DNA of 64,000 nucleotides. It comes from Pseudoflavonifractor sp. An44. GTDB lineage: Bacteria; Bacillota; Clostridia; Oscillospirales; Oscillospiraceae. Numbering within the stretch: position 1 is the first letter of the stretch; each line of letters starts with the position of its first letter. The notes under the pieces were generated by a model that was given only the letters and a program-made list of their open reading frames with translations, was not told the origin of the DNA and made no database searches. The stretch lies in contig NZ_NFIH01000005.1 of NCBI RefSeq assembly GCF_002161675.1, positions 62,001 through 126,000 on the forward strand, read 5' to 3'. The translations under genes and the position numbers were made by a program. This document shows, piece by piece, positions 13,851-59,071 of this stretch.

Positions 13851-13882
13851 GGTGTGGGGCGGGAAGATTCCCGCCCCACACC
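13851..13882. repeat. Left flanking palindrome (reverse complement of 15408-15439)
   Basis: A 32-bp near-perfect palindrome with two 15-bp arms around a central GA. It directly follows the CoA-ligase gene and stops two bases before the insertion-sequence end. It resembles a terminator stem but has no T-run. Confidence 0.9.
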
Positions 13883-13954
13883 GGCAGACTGTCGAAAAAC
13901 TTCCAAAACATCCCCGCATCTGGTAAAATGGTATCAGATGTGGGGGTGTGCTTT

Positions 13955-15382
13955 ATGGAGCAATGGAGAAAAGATTCACGAAAAGAGGCCGTGGTGACAG
14001 ATTTGGAAGCATTGGTGCCCCAAGATCACTTGCTTCGGAAAGTGGAAAAGGTCATGGACTATGAGTGGTTGTATGAGAAACTGGATCCATACTATTGCCA
14101 TGACAACGGGAGACCAGGTATAGACCCCGTCGTGTTAATTAAAATGGCTCTGATTCAGCATTTGTTTGGAATTGCATCGTTGCGCCAGACATACCGGGAC
14201 ATTACCGTAAATCTGGCCTATCGCTGGTTTCTGGGGTATGGACTACTGGAGGAAATTCCCCACTTTTCAACAGTGAGTTATGCCTTTTGCCATAGATTTC
14301 CTGAAGACTTAACCATGGAGATTTTTGAGCACATCCTGAATAAAGCTCTTAACAACCGCATGGTAGACCCACGAACTGTGTTTATTGATGGGACTCACAT
14401 AAAAGCCAGTGCAAATAAGAAGAAATACCAAAAAGAGCAAGTATCCAAGGCTGCCAAGGTATATGCTGAGCAGCTTCGGGAGGAAGTAAATGCCGAACGT
14501 GAGAAGTTGGGGAAAAAGCCTATCAACGACGATGACGATCACGATGATGAGGGCACCTCTGGTGGAGGGATGGTTGAAAAGACAGTTTCCACAACCGACC
14601 CCGATGCGGGAATGTTCATCAAAGGAGAGCATGAACGGCAGTTTGCATACGAAGCACACACAGCTTGTGATAGGCGAGGGTTTATTCTTGGAGTAGAAGT
14701 AACCGCAGGAAATATTCATGACAGCGTAGCTTGGGATGCACTTTACGATGAAATAACAGCTAAATTTGAACATGCGAAGTATGTGGCAATGGACGCAGCA
14801 TATAAAACCCCTTGGATTGCAAAGAAGATTCTGGAGGATGGGAGAATCCCCATCATGCCCTATACCAGGTATAAAGGAGATAAAGAACGGTACAAGCCTT
14901 GGGAGTATGAGTATGATCCTGTAACTGACAGTTTCATTTGCCCTCAAGGTGGTGTGCTGCGACACACCACCACGGACAAGGAAGGAAAACGTACTTACCG
15001 TACGACTCCGTCCAAGTGCAAATCTTGCCCATGTAAATTTAAATGCGGAGCCAATGAAAAGGGGCAAAAGGCAATGACCACACATATCTGGCAGGAGTAT
15101 CTGGATATTGTGGAGGCCATCCGCAAAACCGAAAAGGGCAAGAAAATCTATGCCCAACGAAAAGAAACCATTGAGCGTGTGTTTGCTGATGCAAAGGAGA
15201 AGCACGCTATGCGTTATACGCACCACAGAGGTCTAGCCGCCGTTACCAGGTGGGTTAGGCTTAAATATGCTGCCATGAATTTGAAAAAGCTAGCAAAATG
15301 GAGTTGGGAGAACTCCATTTTGCGCATCATATTTGCTCTTGTTCCCCAAAATACGACTAGAACCCCTGTTTTCGCTTCATGA
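13955..15382 (+). CDS. IS1182 family transposase
   Basis: About 475 residues. The N-terminal segment (LVPQDHLLRKVEKVMDYEWL and PGIDPVVLIKMALIQ) is typical of IS1182/IS5-type enzymes. The DDE core appears as FIDGTHIKASANK, YVAMDAAYKTP and the C-terminal IERVFADAKEKHAMRYTHHRG. A Cys-rich insertion (CKSCPCKFKCG) is usual for the group. ATG 13955 is favoured, but ATG 13928 in the same frame is possible; neither has a strong ribosome site. The coding part appears intact. Codon use is more AT-rich than in neighbouring genes, as expected for an acquired element. Confidence 0.92.
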   Translation: MEQWRKDSRKEAVVTDLEALVPQDHLLRKVEKVMDYEWLYEKLDPYYCHDNGRPGIDPVVLIKMALIQHLFGIASLRQTYRDITVNLAYRWFLGYGLLEEIPHFSTVSYAFCHRFPEDLTMEIFEHILNKALNNRMVDPRTVFIDGTHIKASANKKKYQKEQVSKAAKVYAEQLREEVNAEREKLGKKPINDDDDHDDEGTSGGGMVEKTVSTTDPDAGMFIKGEHERQFAYEAHTACDRRGFILGVEVTAGNIHDSVAWDALYDEITAKFEHAKYVAMDAAYKTPWIAKKILEDGRIPIMPYTRYKGDKERYKPWEYEYDPVTDSFICPQGGVLRHTTTDKEGKRTYRTTPSKCKSCPCKFKCGANEKGQKAMTTHIWQEYLDIVEAIRKTEKGKKIYAQRKETIERVFADAKEKHAMRYTHHRGLAAVTRWVRLKYAAMNLKKLAKWSWENSILRIIFALVPQNTTRTPVFAS

Positions 15383-15393
15383 AAACAGGGGTT
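15361..15393. terminator. Hairpin at the right end of the insertion sequence
   Basis: Perfect 13-bp arms (15361-15373 and 15381-15393) with a seven-base loop, overlapping the transposase stop codon and merging into the terminal repeat. There is no T-run. Confidence 0.6.
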
Positions 15394-15407
15394 CTTCGAC
15401 AGTCTGG

Positions 15408-15439
15408 GGTGTGGGGCGGGAATCTTCCCGCCCCACACC
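15408..15439. repeat. Right flanking palindrome (reverse complement of 13851-13882)
   Basis: The same 32-bp palindrome with central TC instead of GA, making it the exact reverse complement of the left copy. It begins one base after the insertion-sequence end and precedes the uraA promoter. Confidence 0.9.
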
Positions 15440-15462: not shown

Positions 15463-15491
15463 TTGCCATTTTCCCTCCAATCTGCTATGAT
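15463..15491 (+). promoter_or_regulatory. uraA promoter
   Basis: TTGCCA 15463-15468, 17 bases, TATGAT 15486-15491. It lies between the right-hand palindrome and the leader open frame. Confidence 0.65.
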
Positions 15492-15516
15492 ACAAAGTCG
15501 AGACAGAAGGGAGGGA

Positions 15517-15582
15517 ATGGACATGCTGGTACAGATGAAGGCGAATGAGTGTTTGGTGTGGCCGTTCCATCGTCCTATATGA
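15517..15582 (+). CDS. 21-residue leader peptide before uraA
   Basis: ATG 15517 follows GGGAGGG and encodes MDMLVQMKANECLVWPFHRP plus Ile, then TGA 15580-15582. The stop codon abuts the 5' arm of an intrinsic terminator (15583), so a ribosome ending translation would cover that arm. This is the layout of translation-coupled attenuators such as that of pyrBI. There is no repeated codon that would name an amino acid signal. It could be chance, but the ribosome site and position favour a real leader. Confidence 0.5.
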   Translation: MDMLVQMKANECLVWPFHRPI

Positions 15583-15616
15583 GACAATTACCTTTTTTGG
15601 GTGATTGTCTTTTTTT
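15583..15616 (+). terminator. Attenuator-type terminator upstream of uraA
   Basis: Arms 15583-15592 and 15600-15609 pair over 10 bp with one G-T pair, followed by seven T (15610-15616). It sits between promoter and gene, so it must be conditional for uraA to be expressed from this promoter. Confidence 0.75.
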
Positions 15617-15649
15617 CTGTGAGAACATGAGAGAAAAGGAGAGAATAAC

Positions 15650-24177: not shown

Positions 24178-24227
24178 GAGAAAAGAGCGGCGCCAACGGA
24201 CGCCGCCCAAATCAAGAGCACTTTGCT

Positions 24228-24412
24228 TGGCTCGGGGCCTCGCAGAGTTCCGTCACCCGCAGGTGACGGAAAAATCTAAATTGCGTCATTTCCACGGACA
24301 TGTGCCGGGGAAATGACACTTCTCATGTGGGGTGGAATGACTTTTTCGTCAGACATCGAGTTCCACCCCACATGCAAGCCTCCTCCCATAGAAGTCCATG
24401 GACTTCTATGGG
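24228..24412 (-). repeat. Hairpin-array element, copy 1 (candidate structured RNA or palindromic repeat)
   Basis: Directly after potD on its strand lie four perfect stems in series. They are a 28-base palindrome (24412-24385), a 14-bp stem with a 23-base loop (24374-24324), a 9-bp stem with CATGTCC in its loop (24317-24285) and a 10-bp stem (24271-24248). Between them are GAGAAGTG (24324-24317), AGATTTT (24277-24271) and AACTCTGCGAGG (24249-24238). The same motifs, in the same order, occur at 58778-58982 with different but still paired stems. No coding frame is convincing. It fills most of the 298-base gap between potD and the thioesterase gene. Confidence 0.6.
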
Positions 24413-24416
24413 AAGC

Positions 24417-25538
24417 TTAAAGGCCCAGCTGAATCCAAAGATCGTTGTACAGATCGCGGGTCTCCTGGGGGAGCACCACGTAGTTCTCGCACTTTTTCAG
24501 CACGTCGGCAGAGGGGGCCATGATCTCGTAGAGCTCCGGGTCCAGCTCCTCACCGTAGGTCTCTTTGTAGTACTTGGGGTACTTCTCCAGTGCCTCGGTG
24601 TTGGGAGAGGCGTACCAGATATAGTCCATGTTGGACAGAGAGGCGTTGGTGGAGGCCATAAAGTTGATCCACTCCTCCGCTTCAGACACATGCTGAGCAT
24701 TTTTCAGAATGCACCAGGCGTCCACAAACCAGTTGGCCCCCTCCTCGGGGATGACGTAGGCCAGGTCGGAGTTGTTCTCATACATGGACAGGTAGTCGCC
24801 GGCGTAGTAGGTGGCGATGGCGGCGTTGCCCTGCTCCATCTTGTTGAACACCTCGTCCATCACCTTGCCCTGGAAGACGCCCCGGCGGGTGGCATCGGCG
24901 ATGAGGTCGTACGCCTGACGAATCTCGTCCTCGTTGGTGGTGTTCACCGAGTAGCCCAGGTAGATGAGGGCGTTGCCAAAGGCGTCCCGGGAGTTGTTGA
25001 TGAGAAGCACGTTGCCACGATTGGCGTCATCGTACAGGGAGGACCAGCTGGTGATCTCGCCGTCCACCATGGTCTTGTTGTAGATGATGCCCAGGGTGCC
25101 CCAGGTGTAGGGGACGGTGTACTCGTTGTTGGGGTCAAAGGCCAGGTTCTTGAACTGGTCCCCAATATAGGAATAGTTGGGGATGTTGTCGTAGTTCAGG
25201 GGCTGGAGCATGTCCTCCTCAATGAGCTGGGAGATCATATAGTCGGAGGGGCAGATGACGTCGTAGTTGGCGCCGCCGTTTTTCAGCAGGGAATATAGGG
25301 ACTCGTTGCTCTCAGCGGTCTGGTAGTTGACGGTGATCCCCGTCTCCTCCTGGAACTGGGCGATGAGGTCCTCGTCGATATATTCGCCCCAGTTGCACAC
25401 GTTGAGCACCCGCTTGCCGGTGTTGGTGGCGGCGGTGTTGTTGTCGGCCTCGGGGTCAATGCGCTCAATGGTACAGGCGGAGAAGCAGAAGCCGCCCACC
25501 AGCACACAGGCCAGAGCCGCAATGGCTAGCTTTTTCAA
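24417..25538 (-). CDS. potD: Spermidine/putrescine-binding lipoprotein
   Basis: 373-residue substrate-binding protein. A lipoprotein signal ends at Cys22 (FCFSAC). The mature part has the PotD/PotF features LNVCNWGEYIDEDLIAQFQEETG and YDVICPSDYMI. It captures polyamine outside the membrane and delivers it to PotBC. It is the last gene of potABCD, with 24 bases between potC and its start. A 28-base palindrome follows its stop codon. Confidence 0.93.
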   Translation of the reverse strand: MKKLAIAALACVLVGGFCFSACTIERIDPEADNNTAATNTGKRVLNVCNWGEYIDEDLIAQFQEETGITVNYQTAESNESLYSLLKNGGANYDVICPSDYMISQLIEEDMLQPLNYDNIPNYSYIGDQFKNLAFDPNNEYTVPYTWGTLGIIYNKTMVDGEITSWSSLYDDANRGNVLLINNSRDAFGNALIYLGYSVNTTNEDEIRQAYDLIADATRRGVFQGKVMDEVFNKMEQGNAAIATYYAGDYLSMYENNSDLAYVIPEEGANWFVDAWCILKNAQHVSEAEEWINFMASTNASLSNMDYIWYASPNTEALEKYPKYYKETYGEELDPELYEIMAPSADVLKKCENYVVLPQETRDLYNDLWIQLGL

Positions 25539-37655: not shown

Positions 37656-37792
37656 GGCAGAGTAGGTGCGCACGTGTTATGCTTCCCTTGATGGGGGAGA
37701 CAGTGCCGGCGGGACGGGGAGTTGTCCGCCGGACGAATAGCACGAGGGGAGATCCCCCCAGGCTTGCAGTGTGCCCACCGCATCCCGCTGCC
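37656..37792 (+). promoter_or_regulatory. THF riboswitch (folT type)
   Basis: The outer helix P1 GGCAG (37656-37660) pairs with CTGCC (37788-37792). Conserved THF-aptamer segments are present: AGAGTAGGTGC just after P1, and GTGCCCACCGCATCCCGCT near the 3' end, matching the form of the folT-leader aptamer. A 10-bp inner stem (GCCGGCGGGAC region with GTCCGCCGG) is also seen. The genes that follow, folC and folT, are folate genes. Identification is by recognition of conserved segments; a covariance search was not run. Confidence 0.85.
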
Positions 37793-50408: not shown

Positions 50409-51812
50409 ATGGAAGAGAACAACAAGGGAAAGCTGCTCCGGGAGCAGCTGCTCAACCAGAAGAAGAACGGCTGGGACAAGGTGGACGAGGCCACCGAGCA
50501 CGCCATTTTTGATTACTGCGAGGGCTACAAGGTCTACCTGGATAAGGGCAAGACCGAGCGCACCTGTGTGGACTACACCGTGGAGCTCATTGAAGCTGCC
50601 GGTTTTGTGCCCCTGGAGCGGGGCATGGAGCTGGTTCCCGGCATGAAGGTCTACCGGGTCAACCGGGGCCGCGGCATCAACCTGGCTGTCATCGGCTCTG
50701 CCCCCCTGGACCAGGGCGTGTCCATCGTGGCTGCCCACATCGACGCCCCTCGTCTGGACCTGAAGCCCACCCCCCTCTATGAGGACAGCGAGATCGCCTT
50801 CCTCAAGACCCACTACTATGGCGGCATCCGCAAGTACCAGTGGGTGACCATTCCCCTGGAGTTGCGGGGCGTGGTGGTGCTCAAGGACGGCTCTGTGGTG
50901 AATGTGTCCGTGGGCGGCAATCCCGGCGATCCCCAGTTCACCATCAACGATCTGCTGCCCCACCTGGGCGCGGACCAGTCCAAGAAGCCCCTGGGCGAGG
51001 CCATTCCCGCCGAGAGCCTGAACCTGGTGGTGGGCAGCCGCCCCCTGAAGGACGACGAGGGCGACGGCCGGGTGAAGCTGGCGGTGATGCAGATTCTCAA
51101 CGAGAAGTACGGCATCACCGAGGCCGACTTCATCTCCGCCGAGATCGAGGCGGTCCCCGCCTTCAATGCCACCGACATCGGCTTTGACCGCACCCTGCTG
51201 GGCGCTTACGGCCACGACGACCGGGTGTGCGCCTACGCTGGCCTGAAGGCCATGCTGGACCTGGAGGGCACTCCCTGCCGTACCGCCGTGTGCGTGCTGG
51301 CTGACAAGGAGGAGATCGGCTCCGAGGGCGTGTCCGGCATGCAGTCCGCCTTCTTCGACACCTTCATGGAGGACCTGTGCGACAGCCAGAACGTGCCTCT
51401 GCGGGCCTGCTATGAGAAGTCCTTCTGCCTGTCCTCCGACGTCACCGCCGCCTTCGACCCCAACTTTGCTGAGGTCTATGAGCGCAACAACTCCGCCTTC
51501 GTCAACTATGGCGTGGGCCTGAGCAAGTACACCGGTGCCCGCGGCAAGGGCGGCTGCTCCGATGCTGGTGCCGAGGCTGTGGGCTATATCCGCCGTCTGC
51601 TGGACGACCGCGGGGTTCTGTGGCAGATGGCCGAGCTGGGCAAGACCGACCAGGGCGGCGGCGGCACCGTGGCCTGCTATATGGCCAACCGCAACATCGA
51701 CACCCTGGACGCCGGTGTGCCCGTGCTGTCCATGCACTCTCCCTTTGAGACCGTGTCCAAGCTGGACTGCTACATGACCTACGCAGCCTGCCGGGCTCTG
51801 TACGAGGGCTAA
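50409..51812 (+). CDS. M18 family aminopeptidase
   Basis: 467 residues. The M18 metal-site segments are visible: VAAHIDAPRLDLKPTPLYED, LADKEEIGSEGVSGMQSAF and a C-terminal VPVLSMHSPFE. The long insertion between them gives the tetrahedral aminopeptidase fold. It is cytosolic and removes N-terminal residues from peptides. ATG 50409 follows TAGGAGG. It is 20 bases after coaE, probably in the same transcript. Confidence 0.92.
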   Translation: MEENNKGKLLREQLLNQKKNGWDKVDEATEHAIFDYCEGYKVYLDKGKTERTCVDYTVELIEAAGFVPLERGMELVPGMKVYRVNRGRGINLAVIGSAPLDQGVSIVAAHIDAPRLDLKPTPLYEDSEIAFLKTHYYGGIRKYQWVTIPLELRGVVVLKDGSVVNVSVGGNPGDPQFTINDLLPHLGADQSKKPLGEAIPAESLNLVVGSRPLKDDEGDGRVKLAVMQILNEKYGITEADFISAEIEAVPAFNATDIGFDRTLLGAYGHDDRVCAYAGLKAMLDLEGTPCRTAVCVLADKEEIGSEGVSGMQSAFFDTFMEDLCDSQNVPLRACYEKSFCLSSDVTAAFDPNFAEVYERNNSAFVNYGVGLSKYTGARGKGGCSDAGAEAVGYIRRLLDDRGVLWQMAELGKTDQGGGGTVACYMANRNIDTLDAGVPVLSMHSPFETVSKLDCYMTYAACRALYEG

Positions 51813-51944
51813 GAGTTCCGTTCAAAGGGAAAACGGATTCTGATGTTTCGCATCTGCGGGTGCGAACGCTGCGAGGCTTTTTGCCGTTTGCAGGATAAAG
51901 CGCCCCATTCCTGGAAATACTATCCGGGAAGGGGGTGCTTTTGC

Positions 51945-53354: not shown

Positions 53355-53398
53355 AAAACAGACAAGTGGAAGCGAAATTTGACAAGGGAGGAAAGGAA

Positions 53399-56300
53399 AT
53401 GAAGGTAATGAAGAAAAAACAGGTGCTCAGCCTGGCGCTGTCCGCCCTCTTCCTGGCCAGCAGTCTGCCCCTGCAGGCCATTGCGGCAGACACAGGTGGA
53501 GATACCAAGGCGGCGGCCCGTGCCGTAGAGGGTACCGCCATGATTACCCCGGACAGTCCGGTGTTCGTGTCCTCGGGGGCGTCCACTGCCCACTATGCCG
53601 TGGATGGCATCACCCAGGAGACCTATCAGTGGGCCTCGGACGACATGAAGACCAGCGGAGCGACCCCCACCGATGCCCAGACCCCCCAGTGGCTCACCGT
53701 AGACCTGGGGGAGAGCGTGACCCAGCCCGTGGAGGTGGCGGGGGTTCAGCTGTGGTACAACATGAAGGTGTGGCCCATGGTGTACGAGATTCAGACCTCT
53801 TCGGACAACGGGACAGAGGACGCCTGGACCACCTTGGTGCGGGTGGAGCGCTCCCCCTTTGACGGAGCGGTGAAAAACGGCAGCGGCCAGAACATCGCCG
53901 ACGAGACGGGGAACACCACCCCCGCCTCCGCTGCCAACACCGACACCATCACCTCGGACACCACCCCCGCCCTGGCAGAGGGTGCTTCGGTGGAGCGGTA
54001 TGTGCGCTTCTATGTGGAAAAGGTGAACACCGCCGCTCCCGGCAACAACGTGTGCCTGCGGGAGATTCAGGTGTATGCCAAAGAGGCGGAAGAACCCACC
54101 GAGGAGCCCTGGAACCTGGCCCTCAACCGCCCGGTGACGGCCAGCGGGGCCGTGGAGGGGACCTCCGCATCCAATGCGGTGGACGGCTCCAAGACCACCC
54201 AGTGGAACTCCCCGGACCTGAAGGACTTCAAGGTCACGGACAACTCCAAGGACCAGGAGCTCCAGACCCCTCAGTGGCTCCAGATGGACCTGGGAGCCAC
54301 CGGCTCGAAGCTTCAGACCGTGAAGATCACCTATGCCAGCAACAAGGTGTGGGCCATGGAATATGAGCTCCAGACCACCGACACCCCGGAGGATGCCGAT
54401 TCCTGGCAGCGGGTGGCCTATGTCAGCCGAGCTTCGGCTAATTCCACTCTGGTCAACGGAGAGGGGCAGAACATCGCAGACCCTGCCAGCTATACCGACA
54501 CCATCACCACCACGTCCCAGCCCGCTCTGGGTCAGACCCAGCTGGGCCGGTATGTGCGGCTGTACATCCACAAGACCAACGCCCAGGCCCCCGGCGGCAA
54601 CAATGTGAACATTGCCGAGGTTGCGCTCATGGGCACCAATCCCGACGTTCACCCCCCTGTGGACGTGGATGGAGAACTGAATAAAGTCACTGTGTCCAAT
54701 CCCAGCCTGGGAGATACCCAGATCACTTTGCCCACCATCTCCGGGGCGGACCTGGTGGTGCGGGGCAGCGAACTGGAGAACGTGGTGGCCAATGACGGCA
54801 CCATCAGCTCGTGGAACATTGGCGCTCGGGACGTGACGCTGCTGCTGCGCCTTACCGACCGGGGAGACGAGACCAGCTATGCCCAGAAGAATGTCACCGT
54901 CACCGTGCCCGACCACTCCTCCAACTATCCCGCTGAGTGGTTCCCCACGGTGACCGACCCCAACCCCAAGCCAGAGGTCATTCCCACCGTCCAGGAGTGG
55001 TACGGCTATGAGGGCAGCTTTACCCTCACCGCCGACTCCAAGGTCATCCTCAATGACAAGGCCAATGTGGGCCTGGACAAGGTGGCCCAGAACCTGGTGA
55101 CCGATGTGGAGGAGATCTCCGGCCTCACCCTGACGGTGGAGACGGGCACCGCCCCCACCGGGCCCCACGACATCTATTTGGAGTCCCTCACCGACCCCGC
55201 CGCCTATGACCTGGGGGAGGAGGGCTACCTGATGGTGACCAATGAGCAGGGGCTGCACATCTATGCCCCCACCTATACTGGTTGCCTGTATGGCACCATT
55301 ACCGCCGAGCAGATTCTGTGGCAGGCCCAGGACCATGTGTCCATTCCCCAGGGCATCATGCGGGACTATCCCGCCTATGAGGTGCGGGGCATCATGCTGG
55401 ACGTGGCCCGTACCCCCTACCGCTATGAGCTGCTCCAGGACTACGCCAAGATCATGCTGTGGTACAAGATGAACGAGTTCCACCTGCATGTCAATGACAA
55501 CGACAACGCCAACATCAGCTCCTCCTCCTTTGAGACCCACTCCGGCTTCCACCGCCTGGAGAGCGAGGAGTTCCCCAGCCTTACCTCGGAGACCAAGCAT
55601 GCAGGCATTCCTGCCGATCTCATCAACTCCGACTACTACAACAACAACGAGGACTATCAGGGCAACCCCACCTACACCAAGGACCAGTGGCGGGCGCTGA
55701 CCCAGATGTGCGAGGACATGGGCATGTATGTGCTCACCGAGCTGGACATGCCCGGTCACTCCCTGCTGTACAACAAGTACGCCGCTGAGAACCCGGACAA
55801 CATTGAGTGGCTGGCCGGGGGCACCATGCTGGCCCCCAGCACCACCAGCCTGGGCCAGCAGCTGGAGCTGCTGGACTTGACCGGCCCCAACAGCCAACGG
55901 GCCCTGCGCTTTGCCTCCACCCTGTGGGACGAGTACACCCGTGGGGAGGACCCGGTGGTGAACGCGGACGTGGTGCACATCGGCGCCGATGAGTACTGGG
56001 TGCACAACCAGGCCACCAACGATGCCTTTGCCAAGTTTGCCGACACCATGCGCCAGACCATCCAGAACAACCTGGGTGAGGACACCAAAATCCGCATGTG
56101 GGGCGCCAGCACCGGCAGCTTTGCCACCGCTCAGACCGCCCTGGGCAAGACCGCCCAGGAGCTGGCGGAGGACTACCAGCTGGACATCTGGAGCACCGCC
56201 TATGACCAGGCCGCCCAGCGTGTGGCCGAAGGGTATCAGGTCATCAACTGCCGGGACGCCTTCCTGTACGCCAACCCCGGCCGTACCAACCGAGACGTGC

Positions 56301-58726
56301 CCAACGCCGAGTACCTGTTCTACGACTGGAACCCCACCATGTTCGGCGGCAACAATCCCCTGGTGGGTGAGCCCAACCTGGTGGGCGCCAAGGGCGTGGT
56401 CTGGGGCGACCAGAGCCAGGAGGGCATGACCGAGCAGGACATCCACCAGCGGGTGCTGCGCACCGTGTCCATCCTCAGCGAAAAGACCTGGGGTGGCACC
56501 GACCAGGAGGATACCTTCCCTGAGTACGAGCTGCGTGCCGCCCGTCTGGCCGAGGGCCCCGGAACCCAGATCGCCATGGAGGTGGACAGCGCCAGCTCCC
56601 TGGTGCTGGACTATGACTTTGCTAACACCGATCAGGATGGAACCCGAGTGTACGACGCCAGCGGCAACGGCTATGACGCCACTCTCACCGGCGGCGCTGT
56701 GGAGGACGGCTGGCTCACCTTCGACGGCTCCACCCTCCTGGAGACCCCGTTGAAGACTCTGTCCTATCCCTACACCGTCTCCTTTGATTTGAAGCTCTCT
56801 GTCCAAGATGGTGAGGCCAACACGGCCGAATCCTCCCTGTTCTCCGGCTATGACGGCCGCATCCAGGTGGCGGGACACAATGGCAACCTCAGTGCGGATG
56901 TGAACTACTTCACCCGTGACTTTGGCTACCAGGTGCCCACCGACGGCACCGCCGTGAACATCACCATCGTGGGCACCTTCCAGGCCACCCGGCTCTATGT
57001 CAACGGCCAGCTGGTGACCTTCCTGTCCCAGAAGCAGGACCAGGACGGTGTGACCCCCAATGCGGTGTCCACCCTCTACTCCTCGGTGCTGCTGCCCCTG
57101 GAGAAGATCGGTCAGGACTTCCACGGCCAGATGGCCAACCTGAAGGTGTACAACAAGGCCCTGTCTGCCCAGGAGGTGGCGGGGACCGATGACGGCCTGG
57201 TGAACGTGGCCCAGAACGCCTACGCCGGCGGCGACTCCTACCAGAGCAGCGACGCCTCCGGCCAGGACAACGGAGTGCAGCGCACCCGCATCGCCATGAA
57301 GGCGGTGGACGGCGAGACCTTCACCAGCGACGACGATGCCTCTTCGGAGATCTACTCCTACTGGCAGGGCGACCACGGGGACAGCTCCCTCACCGTGGAC
57401 CTGGGCCAGGTGCGCACCATCTCCCAGGTGGACCTCCAGTGGAGAGCCGACGGCGTGGGCCGTGACATCAAGATTATGACCTCTCTGGACGGGGAGACCT
57501 GGACCGAGGCCAAGGTGGTCTCCGGCAACACTGCCGCCCGCCAGACCGTGAAGCTGGACCAGGCGATGGAGGCCCGCTTTGTGAAGATGCAGGGCAACCA
57601 GTCCAGCGGCGTGTACAAGCTCCAGGAGATGCTGGTCTATGAGCAGGTGGACAAAGCAGAGCTCCAGAAGCTGTTGGCCCAGGCCGAGGAGATCGTGGCT
57701 GAAAAGGGCCTGACCTTTACTTCTCAGGACACTCAGGAGGAACGGGCACTGTTTGAGGCCGTGGTGCTGGCCCGTGCCCTCCAAGGCAGCCCCTTGGCTA
57801 CCCGCAGCGAGGTGGAGAACAGCGCCGCAGCCCTCACCGAGGCCATGGAGAATCTGCCTGTGGAGCCTACACCTACTCCCACTCCCGAGCCTACGCCGGA
57901 GCCCACCCCCGAACCCAGCCAGGTAGACAAGACCCTGCTGCAAAAGACCTATGACTACGCCATGACGCTCTCCACCGAGGGTGTCACCGACACTGCCAAG
58001 GCTGCTTTTGAACAGGCACTGGCCAATGCCAAGGTAGTTCTGGCGGATGAAAACGCCTCTCAGGAGGATGTCGACGCCGCTTGGGACGCCCTGCTGGAGG
58101 GTATCTGGGGCCTGGGCCTCACCCAGGGCGACAAGGCCATGCTGGAGCAGCTGATCGCCAAGGCGGAGGACATGACTGCCAACGCTGACCAGTATGTGGC
58201 CGAGCACTGGAAGGAGTTGGTGGACGCCCTGGCGGCTGCCAAGGACGTGATGGCCGACGGCGACGCCATGGAGGAGGACGTGCAGCCCGCCGCTCAGGTG
58301 TTGCTCAATGCCATCCTGGCCCAGCGTTTCAAGGCTAACAAGTCCATCCTGGAAGACCTCATCGGCAAGGCTGAGAGCTTGGACCTGTCCGGCTACACCG
58401 CCGAGAGCGTGGCCGCCTTCCGCACCGCTCTGGCCAACGCTCAGACCGTGATGGCGGACAACAGCCTCACCGAGGACGACCAGAAGACGGTGGACGCCGC
58501 TGTGGCTCAGTTGGACACCGCCATCCGTGGTCTGACCACCGAGAGCGGTGAGACCCCCAACGCCACCGACAAGCCCGAAACCACGGACAAGCCGGATGCC
58601 ACCCAGAAGCCGGAGAGTGTGCCTCAGACCGGAGATGGGAACTGGGTGATGGTGCCCGTTCTGACCCTCTTGGTCTGTGCTGCTTGCCTGGCTGTGGTTG
58701 CGGCGGCCCGCAAGCGAGTCCGCTGA
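53399..58726 (+). CDS. Cell-wall-anchored GH20 hexosaminidase with carbohydrate-binding and FIVAR domains
   Basis: 1,775 residues. In order: signal peptide (1-30), two discoidin/F5-8-type modules (about 50-230 and 237-415), a short beta domain, a GH20b domain (about 520-660), the GH20 barrel (about 660-1060) with HLHVNDNDN, TELDMPGHS and the catalytic pair Asp864-Glu865 in HIGADEYW, a LamG-type domain (about 1065-1250), a third discoidin-type module (about 1265-1420), a Pro/Thr linker near 1488, three FIVAR-like helical repeats, and a sortase-type end VPQTGD-hydrophobic helix-RKRVR (from about 1739). GH20 enzymes with this plan include lacto-N-biosidases and hexosaminidases acting on mucin or milk-type glycans; the substrate is inferred. 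ATG 53399 follows GGGAGGAAAGG. Confidence 0.92.
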   Translation: MKVMKKKQVLSLALSALFLASSLPLQAIAADTGGDTKAAARAVEGTAMITPDSPVFVSSGASTAHYAVDGITQETYQWASDDMKTSGATPTDAQTPQWLTVDLGESVTQPVEVAGVQLWYNMKVWPMVYEIQTSSDNGTEDAWTTLVRVERSPFDGAVKNGSGQNIADETGNTTPASAANTDTITSDTTPALAEGASVERYVRFYVEKVNTAAPGNNVCLREIQVYAKEAEEPTEEPWNLALNRPVTASGAVEGTSASNAVDGSKTTQWNSPDLKDFKVTDNSKDQELQTPQWLQMDLGATGSKLQTVKITYASNKVWAMEYELQTTDTPEDADSWQRVAYVSRASANSTLVNGEGQNIADPASYTDTITTTSQPALGQTQLGRYVRLYIHKTNAQAPGGNNVNIAEVALMGTNPDVHPPVDVDGELNKVTVSNPSLGDTQITLPTISGADLVVRGSELENVVANDGTISSWNIGARDVTLLLRLTDRGDETSYAQKNVTVTVPDHSSNYPAEWFPTVTDPNPKPEVIPTVQEWYGYEGSFTLTADSKVILNDKANVGLDKVAQNLVTDVEEISGLTLTVETGTAPTGPHDIYLESLTDPAAYDLGEEGYLMVTNEQGLHIYAPTYTGCLYGTITAEQILWQAQDHVSIPQGIMRDYPAYEVRGIMLDVARTPYRYELLQDYAKIMLWYKMNEFHLHVNDNDNANISSSSFETHSGFHRLESEEFPSLTSETKHAGIPADLINSDYYNNNEDYQGNPTYTKDQWRALTQMCEDMGMYVLTELDMPGHSLLYNKYAAENPDNIEWLAGGTMLAPSTTSLGQQLELLDLTGPNSQRALRFASTLWDEYTRGEDPVVNADVVHIGADEYWVHNQATNDAFAKFADTMRQTIQNNLGEDTKIRMWGASTGSFATAQTALGKTAQELAEDYQLDIWSTAYDQAAQRVAEGYQVINCRDAFLYANPGRTNRDVPNAEYLFYDWNPTMFGGNNPLVGEPNLVGAKGVVWGDQSQEGMTEQDIHQRVLRTVSILSEKTWGGTDQEDTFPEYELRAARLAEGPGTQIAMEVDSASSLVLDYDFANTDQDGTRVYDASGNGYDATLTGGAVEDGWLTFDGSTLLETPLKTLSYPYTVSFDLKLSVQDGEANTAESSLFSGYDGRIQVAGHNGNLSADVNYFTRDFGYQVPTDGTAVNITIVGTFQATRLYVNGQLVTFLSQKQDQDGVTPNAVSTLYSSVLLPLEKIGQDFHGQMANLKVYNKALSAQEVAGTDDGLVNVAQNAYAGGDSYQSSDASGQDNGVQRTRIAMKAVDGETFTSDDDASSEIYSYWQGDHGDSSLTVDLGQVRTISQVDLQWRADGVGRDIKIMTSLDGETWTEAKVVSGNTAARQTVKLDQAMEARFVKMQGNQSSGVYKLQEMLVYEQVDKAELQKLLAQAEEIVAEKGLTFTSQDTQEERALFEAVVLARALQGSPLATRSEVENSAAALTEAMENLPVEPTPTPTPEPTPEPTPEPSQVDKTLLQKTYDYAMTLSTEGVTDTAKAAFEQALANAKVVLADENASQEDVDAAWDALLEGIWGLGLTQGDKAMLEQLIAKAEDMTANADQYVAEHWKELVDALAAAKDVMADGDAMEEDVQPAAQVLLNAILAQRFKANKSILEDLIGKAESLDLSGYTAESVAAFRTALANAQTVMADNSLTEDDQKTVDAAVAQLDTAIRGLTTESGETPNATDKPETTDKPDATQKPESVPQTGDGNWVMVPVLTLLVCAACLAVVAAARKRVR

Positions 58727-58738
58727 TCTCTTTGCACC

Positions 58739-58776
58739 AAATACCCCGGACCGGGTTCTCCCGGTCCGGGGTATTT
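58739..58776 (+). terminator. Terminator of the GH20 gene
   Basis: A perfect 17-bp hairpin (58739-58755 with 58760-58776), A-tract before and TATTT within its end. Confidence 0.85.
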
Positions 58777-58777
58777 C

Positions 58778-58982
58778 GCGTGTCGAACCAGTTCGACACG
58801 CTTCTCAAAAATGCCAGCATTTTTGAGAGAAATTGCAGCCCGCTGCATGCAGAATCGGGTCAAAGGGCGATCCGATTCCACACTGGCGGGCTGAGAAGTG
58901 TTTTTCCCGATGCGCATGTCCCCAGGAAAAACAGATTTTGATTTATTTTCCCGCCCTTAGGCGGGAAAACTCTGCCGAGGGC
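58778..58982 (+). repeat. Hairpin-array element, copy 2 (candidate structured RNA or palindromic repeat)
   Basis: Five stems follow one another: 11 bp (58778-58788 with 58791-58801), 10 bp (58804-58813 with 58818-58827), an 8-bp stem (58836-58843 with 58886-58893) enclosing a 7-bp inner stem (58852-58858 with 58872-58878), 9 bp with CATGTCC in the loop (58899-58907 with 58925-58933), and 10 bp (58946-58955 with 58960-58969). Linkers include TTGCA, GAGAAGTG (58893-58900), AGATTTT (58933-58939) and AACTCTGCCGAGG. Motifs and order match the element at 24228-24412, while the stem sequences differ. It lies between the GH20 terminator and uppP; 58983-59071 shows nothing else that I can name. Confidence 0.6.
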
Positions 58983-59071
58983 TTTTTGACGATGCAATAT
59001 CATCTGGCCTTTTGCATGGATATGAGGTATTTTGACGAGATTTCCGATGGTAGGGAGAAAAACGCTGGAAT

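Follow-up and report, generated by a model that had tools for sequence, protein, structure and literature searches.

A MITE-like repeat family of Oscillospirales with IS1182-type ends and an unusual whole-hairpin target duplication

Correia, BOX, and RUP are short non-autonomous stem-loop elements that borrow a transposase, and REPs are tied to RAYT Y1 transposases. Correia, BOX, and RUP differ from the family described here in their hosts, ends, and IS families, and we set them apart by description. REP/BIME sequences are described, in the cited part of PMC3733652, as palindromic and of high copy number, with proposed roles in termination and mRNA stability and with REPs of 20 to 40 bp, versus 200 to 270 bp and DDE transposase ends in the present family. 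The bcr1 to bcr18 repeats of the Bacillus cereus group are interspersed, some of them MITE-like and some with conserved folds; according to the cited part of that source, about half of the bcr copies are found in transcripts, and bcr3 correlates with mRNA decay (PMC3446304). Compared with that account, by description only, the present family occupies another host group and is marked by IS1182-type ends and hairpin duplication.

IS1272/TnSha1, staphylococcal members of the IS1182 family, use inverted-repeat targets, several of them confirmed terminators, for which the cited sections give no sequence consensus (PMC4923244, PMC5678879). As these sections have it, IS1272 deletes, trims, or replaces the stem-loop and makes no target duplication (PMC4923244, PMC5678879). 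A possible pathway b, drawn in Fig. 13 of PMC5678879, has the transposon 3' ends joining the 5' feet of an extruded cruciform, which duplicates the stem-loop. To the extent that these sections describe IS1272, the family reported here resembles it in its IS1182-type ends and in its inverted-repeat, terminator-like targets (45 of 52 palindromic; an outer tract in 38 of 44). Unlike IS1272 as described there, it carries the whole hairpin on both sides, in the element and in the related insertion sequence (IS) alike. The duplications of both match the pattern of pathway b as outlined in that figure and may have arisen by its strand chemistry. They would provide natural cases of structure-directed transposition by a hairpin-duplicating branch, which the cited section raises only as a possibility for IS1272 (PMC5678879).

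We analyzed a stretch of 64,000 nucleotides from Pseudoflavonifractor sp. An44, referred to here as the window. An earlier note had described a series of hairpins behind a GH20 gene, repeated on the minus strand behind a "potD" gene, with conserved linkers, compensated stems, and no named RNA family to fit. Both copies are indeed found at 58778-58982 and, on the minus strand, at 24412-24228; they share the hairpin order and linkers, and the start of GAGAAGTG precedes the start of CATGTCC by 22 bases in each. The covariation and the absence of a named family hold, but the note missed the mobility of the element, its IS1182-type ends, and the duplicated terminators. The pattern GAGAAGTG-N{10,30}-CATGTCC matches exactly twice in the window, versus 0.01 matches expected. 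The plus copy folds at -90.9 kcal/mol (z -6.27) and the minus copy at -104.2 kcal/mol (z -9.95), and in neither case were any of 200 shuffles as good. The upstream gene calls agree with ours, with a Glyco_hydro_20 domain in the open reading frame (ORF) at 53366-58726 and, as far as the "potD" call goes, an extracellular solute-binding protein in the ORF at 24417-25538.

Several details of the copies need revision (Table 1). The plus copy extends further than the note had it, with a decayed right end near 59042, for a length of about 265 bp; two intact relatives of the same type, L089 and L091, measure 268 bp between duplications. The linker given as AGATTTT differs in register, reading CAGATTTTGATTTA in the plus copy and GCAATTTAGATTTTTCC in the minus copy. 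CATGTCC was assigned to the loop of hairpin C, but that loop is C-N-CATGT and the final CC belongs to the stem. Relatives carry AGCGTGTCGAAAAAGTTCGACACGCT at the left end, adjoining an intact duplication, and the left-end palindrome of the plus copy is presumably derived from an IS1182-type terminal repeat. No second, right-hand copy of the hairpin behind the GH20 gene survives, no duplication was found for the plus copy, and this hairpin goes uncalled in the consensus terminator scan. The minus copy lies upstream of an intact terminator, also without a duplication, and a counterpart of that terminator stands close behind the stop codon in two element-free congeners.

Table 1. Coordinates of the two window copies, the window IS, and their flanking hairpins
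Feature	Position	Strand	Basis
Autonomous IS1182-family insertion sequence, 1522 bp, same terminal repeats	13885..15406	+	Profile match, end motif
IS1182-family DDE transposase ORF, 484 aa	13928..15382	+	NF033551 E 3.5e-115 (over cut-off); DDE_Tnp_1_6, DDE_Tnp_1, DUF772
Left hairpin flanking the window IS	13852..13881	+	Flank comparison
Right hairpin flanking the window IS; exact reverse complement of the left, loop flipped	15409..15438	+	Flank comparison
Hairpin AATACCCCGGACCGGG...CCCGGTCCGGGGTATT behind the GH20 gene, presumed target (left copy)	58740..58775	+	Sequence, gene
Left-end palindrome GCGTGTCGAACC/AGTTCGACACGC	58778..58801	+	Sequence, fold
Plus copy, hairpin A, 12 bp	58802..58829	+	Fold
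Plus copy, hairpin B, outer and inner stem, type I form	58836..58893	+	Fold; subtype by eye
Conserved linker GAGAAGTG; its final G opens hairpin C	58893..58900	+	Pattern, column conservation
Plus copy, hairpin C, loop CGCATGT	58900..58932	+	Fold, covariation
Plus copy, hairpin D, 10 bp	58946..58969	+	Fold, covariation
Plus copy, conserved tail CTCTGCCGAGG	58970..58980	+	Aligned relatives, column conservation
Plus copy, decayed right terminal repeat, GGTATTTTGACGAGATT versus GGTTTTTTGACAGTCTG in intact relatives	59026..59042	+	By eye
Minus copy, hairpin A, one base past the solute-binding protein stop codon (gene at 24417-25538)	24382..24415	-	Sequence, fold
Minus copy, hairpin B, type II form	24325..24373	-	Sequence, fold
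Minus copy, hairpin C, loop CACATGT	24285..24317	-	Fold, covariation
Minus copy, hairpin D	24248..24271	-	Fold, covariation
Minus copy, conserved tail CTCTGCGAGG	24238..24247	-	Sequence, aligned relatives
Retained host terminator, downstream of the minus copy	24185..24208	-	Terminator scan, congener comparison

Far from being confined to these two loci, an outcome that the earlier note had raised against itself, the repeat is widespread. R1, a covariance model built on 31 sequences of hairpins C and D, identified 48 strong copies in the 2.75-Mb genome itself (E below 1e-11), and the core is present in 167 of 300 genomes of the same family, a search that scored no more than 14 candidates in each genome, so that its per-genome copy numbers are lower bounds. 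A draw from the order yielded the core in 41 of 295 genomes, of which 19 belong to the same family and 22 lie outside it, several of the latter with weak matches only. The draw from the class gave a single positive among 291 genomes, namely, the genome under study. Two congeners have 33 and 38 matches, and three others have none. These figures indicate that the repeat is abundant but patchy and, in the draws made, present within the order only. Rfam yielded no gathering match at either window location in gathering-level and relaxed scans, and membership in an Rfam family was rejected; the plus copy drew only unrelated sub-threshold matches up to E 10, and the minus copy drew none up to E 1. 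We recognized no described family of this kind in our searches of the open-licence literature, and the element family has apparently not been described before.

Searching with the linker pattern turned up three matches in the genome under study and at least 113 stretches in named genomes. Inspection left 75 true copies among the matches listed, 71 from named genomes and 4 from the genome under study, and the remaining matches were read as chance; 10 of 18 score-1 rows re-read by eye were kept. Since these copies were retrieved through GAGAAGTG and CATGTCC, the sample is biased toward containing both motifs. The copy-bearing records are titled Flavonifractor, Pseudoflavonifractor, Sporobacter, Galloscillospira, Enterenecus, and Pseudobutyricicoccus, or carry only labels such as unnamed Oscillospiraceae, Ruminococcaceae, or Clostridia. 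Three genome pairs share coordinates and are probably the same genomes (G002/G276, G003/G138, and G004/G224), and three copies listed under two names (L056/L255, L089/L284, and L091/L246) are counted twice in the gene-context and orientation counts. The locus set from this genome and its congeners comprises 100 of 108 loci, leaving out L221 (whose copy lies in L198), L255, L286, and L299 to L303.

At least three subtypes can be distinguished by eye, with order and linkers in common and hairpins A and B different. The plus window copy is type I and the minus window copy is type II, which is why the two look so different, and comparing them therefore says little about compensation per unit time. 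In Vescimonas fastidiosa (L314, NZ_AP023416.1; annotated, 861 kb), ten places match the plus copy, the best of them shortly behind tuf with no annotated feature beneath. A phage origin was considered and rejected: six pattern matches in viral contigs lack the conserved tail and were read as chance, and two weak partial matches occur in unannotated phage records from faeces. A weak match at 51808-51879 of the window (E 0.0088) lies in coding-like sequence and was likewise read as chance.

The ends of complete copies read CAGNCTGTCGAAAAA...TTTTTCGACAGNCTG, or nearly so, as do those of some transposons of the IS1182 family. Dispersed in multiple copies of about 210 to 270 bp, the element has no room for a transposase gene. 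Three IS1182 copies, the one in the window and those at L123 and L125, are bordered by this end motif and also by duplicated hairpins. The hairpin core is absent from the window IS. The end motif was not found in the fetched stretches of four other over-cut-off IS1182 loci (L126 to L129; L134, also over cut-off, was left out of this check), which restricts these ends to a part of the IS1182 family. Comparison of sequences establishes a MITE-like family with IS1182-type ends and an unusual target duplication. The two hairpins flanking the window IS are mutually inverted, whereas the duplications scored in the element family are direct; this perhaps reflects inversion through the palindromic arms or strand transfer in the other sense to the extruded hairpin.

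Presence of the core and of IS1182 showed no significant association across the 300 family genomes (p 0.23; 67 with both, 100 with the core only, 44 with the IS only, and 89 with neither), which are draft assemblies, and drafts lose repeats. Two congeners have both the core and IS1182, and G207, G252, and G290 have no core and no genome-level IS1182 match. A contig end behind dnaJ in G252 nevertheless contains the start of an IS1182-like frame, indicating that the genome-level scan misses fragments. Flavonifractor sp. An10 (G001) carries at least six minimal palindromes that consist of two terminal repeats back to back with 1 to 3 bases between them (e.g., C1:410577-410608), which may be solo ends whose interior has been lost.

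The target of insertion is evident from the flanks. The 75 true copies, including the 4 from the genome under study, entered the flank test, and 10 too near a contig end were skipped; a flanking direct duplication (score of 17 or more; shuffle maximum, 11) is present in 32 of 65 copies, all of them among the 61 copies from named genomes. Between the duplications, 21 of these 32 copies measure 209 to 217 bp, and two measure 268 bp. At L014, for example, AGGCGCCCGCGTTTGCGGGCGCCT stands on both sides, with a T-tract on the right only. Duplications with a score of 12 or more, again above a shuffle maximum of 11, flank 7 of the 48 copies in the genome under study, leaving 41 without one, and 15 of 59 congener copies. 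When pooled, 54 of 169 copies have a duplication with a score of 15 or more, 52 of which are distinct.

Palindromes make up 45 of the 52 distinct duplications, versus 20% of 818 random segments; one of the 45 is a 235-nt artefact, the other 44 are hairpins of 22 to 39 nt, and 7 of the 52 are not palindromic. Duplication length follows hairpin span (Spearman 0.64, artefact included). Among the 44 hairpin duplications, an A-tract precedes the left copy in 32 and a T-tract follows the right copy in 26, so that one or the other lies on the outer side in 38, as in terminators. Inner-side tracts are rare (5 and 3 among the 44). These positions are what would be expected if whole terminator stem-loops, minus their tracts, were duplicated. 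L209, from the genome under study, and its ortholog L259 in G071 are flanked by a non-hairpin duplication of 26 to 28 bp, which by eye is the 3' end of a neighboring reading frame.

A terminator behind dnaJ, a gene identified through Pfam, has been a target of both the element and the IS. In G150 the element sits there between two identical terminators; in G071 the terminator is followed by an IS1182 end, 107 bp of which are 92% identical to the window IS; and in G252 it is followed by the end motif and then by a fragment that matches IS1182 weakly (E 8.6e-4). G000, G207, and G290 have the plain terminator. Judging from these junctions, one dnaJ terminator was struck separately by the element and by IS1182, which supports movement of the element by that transposase. 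Empty sites exist for both window copies: G071 and G150 lack the minus copy at the corresponding position, and G071 also has no plus copy upstream of its BacA gene.

We consider it probable that the repeat is a non-autonomous, MITE-like element of Oscillospirales that is moved in trans by IS1182-family DDE transposases, duplicates its target hairpin, and decays to a resident core. The transposase would recognize the terminal repeats of ~15 bp, and the element ends would be joined at the feet of an extruded target hairpin, usually a Rho-independent terminator. Repair would copy the whole hairpin onto both sides; the outer T- or A-tract would stay with the hairpin on that side, and neither copy would have a tract facing the element. 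Because the tract is kept on the outer copy, termination could survive, and the inserted core may join the 3' untranslated region. With age, the terminal repeats and the duplicated hairpin would decay, leaving the core (hairpins A to D and their linkers), which would often begin within ~20 nt of the stop codon.

The claim that the stems vary yet stay paired between conserved linkers is borne out in a larger sample of 31 cores. Of 675 cells, 96.4% are paired, and in 16 of 22 pairs both partners change, a count reached by none of 500 shuffles (mean, 9.6; sd, 1.0). Covariation is 0.446 versus 0.146, and sliding the partner columns by one to three destroys the signal. Across 202 aligned rows, conservation is highest at positions that include GAGAAGTG, GC-N-CATGTCC, the TT...AA at the foot of hairpin D, and CTCTGC. 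The unpaired and loop motifs GAGAAGTG, CATGTCC, and AACTCTG are 82 to 100% conserved per column in these rows, the model behind which was built on sequences found via two of those motifs. Selection on RNA or DNA structure, for which the note argued, may lie behind the covariation, and some of it could instead be due to copies exchanging sequence or to templated repair of imperfect palindromes.

We also compared orthologous copies in 18 groups of loci from three species, mostly 80 to 96% identical and with at least one flank in common. Counted over 18 pairs of copies, which are not all independent and include triplets more than once, these comparisons contain 922 unchanged base pairs and 82 single changes. 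They also contain 18 doubly changed Watson-Crick pairs and 4 doubly changed broken ones, versus 3.9 doubles of any kind expected if the two sides are independent. Leaving out L205/L263, which has only the right flank in common, reduces the 18 to 15. Pair-breaking single changes are also common, including 37 mismatches other than A.C and G.U. At L208/L264/L283, hairpin A and the inner stem of hairpin B are changed and compensated, and at L298/L300, hairpin A is wholly rewritten with pairing kept; about three loci carry the case for in-place compensation. At L211/L250 and L237/L244/L278, the subtype differs, with the right part (hairpin D) and the flank in common, a pattern suggestive of exchange between copies. 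Similarity is higher within the element than in the 60 nt behind it in 16 of the 18 comparisons, the same in one, and lower in one.

Gene context was counted with codon-scored gene calls trained on this window only; longest-ORF calls, which gave about equal strands, were dropped as unreliable in GC-rich DNA. A gene 3' end lies on the left in 125 of 162 copies, and 3 of the 162 lie between divergent genes, with orthologous copies counted separately. Within the genus, the distance from the stop codon to GAGAAGTG clusters at ~80 to 105 and ~140 to 170 nt. Hairpin A starts ~91 nt before GAGAAGTG in both window copies, so in the first group it would start practically at the stop codon; the examples read from that group lack the left end. 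Sense copies outnumber antisense copies in the genus by 29 to 8 among those without a duplication and number 2 to 4 among those with one. When one copy per orthologous group is counted, copies without a duplication are sense in 36 versus 18 cases between codirectional genes (p 0.02), compared with 6 versus 9 for copies with one, a weak contrast (Fisher p 0.077).

By analogy with what has been proposed for REP and bcr repeats, the core may act as a structured RNA at the 3' ends of mRNAs, influencing their termination or stability, a reading to which we give slightly less than an even chance. A fuller version, which we find rather doubtful, holds that the repeat is a transposable 3'-UTR module: insertion at terminators by hairpin duplication would leave termination intact and deliver a structured RNA domain to mRNA ends across the genome, and immobile sense copies with compensated stems, by then situated at the stop codon, would be kept as a shared regulatory or stabilizing 3' end for dozens of genes. 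The family could instead be purely selfish DNA, its stems kept by templated repair, copy exchange, or a role in single-stranded transposition, and its core having no role as RNA; we take this seriously but lean against it. Wobble intermediates are rare, with 5 G-U cells among the 675 of the 31 cores, and the exchange-like subtype switches at L211/L250 and L237/L244/L278, together with the wholesale rewriting of hairpin A in L298/L300, are also what such processes would leave behind. Selfish persistence accounts less well for the conservation of the unpaired and loop motifs, even in rows that are partly motif-selected, or for copies that have lost their ends or duplication yet keep the core, within the genus mainly in sense orientation and many of them close behind stop codons.

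The choice of strand bears on both readings. On the premise that in a functional RNA on the written strand G-U should outnumber A-C, we counted A.C versus G.U on that strand and obtained 42 to 14 by row and 22 to 9 by stem haplotype, and orthologous pairs show no bias (24 to 21). The excess of A.C over G.U tells against the sense strand, so that a sense RNA is backed by position and orientation, not by wobble pairs, a result that also suits selfish DNA. A strand test on automatically detected hairpins (A.C 145, G.U 31; 29 to 23 in distinct contexts) was left unused, as a conserved A.C mismatch in hairpin C dominates its counts, and host terminators as its positive control returned nothing. The same excess amounts to G.U over A.C on the other strand, which also folds slightly better (-87.3 versus -83.6 kcal/mol over 107 related copies), as would suit an independent small RNA read from the opposite strand, ending at hairpin A as a terminator shared with the upstream gene, and captured between IS1182 ends. 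Several type II hairpins A are, by eye, an A-tract, a GC stem, and a T-tract in both directions, and on the reverse strand of the plus copy a single weak site, at 58847-58834 within hairpin B, resembles a terminator. We nevertheless judge a reverse small RNA improbable, in view of a bias no stronger than 22 to 9 at the haplotype level, no sigma-70-like promoter inside either window copy, and a terminator scan that calls hairpin A on neither strand of either copy. Copies do adjoin terminators and gene 3' ends, as a chance series of ordinary terminators behind two genes would, but conserved linkers and order in 48 copies of one genome and 167 of 300 family genomes, along with the covarying stems, refute that reading and leave it a negligible chance.

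A mobile element, probably dependent on IS1182, remains our preferred reading. A very common repeat of gut Oscillospirales has been missing from Rfam, and an IS1182-type transposon is its likely source. If the core acts on RNA, the transposon would supply genes with 3' ends already made. Many unlabeled intergenic hairpins could be annotated with the help of a model of the family, and terminator prediction near copies would need care. Elsewhere in the window, a short ORF-like leader and a hairpin with a T-run precede the next gene to the right of the IS, at ~15480-15620, and by eye this arrangement looks like an attenuator. A tetrahydrofolate riboswitch (RF01831, 65.3 bits) lies on the plus strand at 37656-37792.
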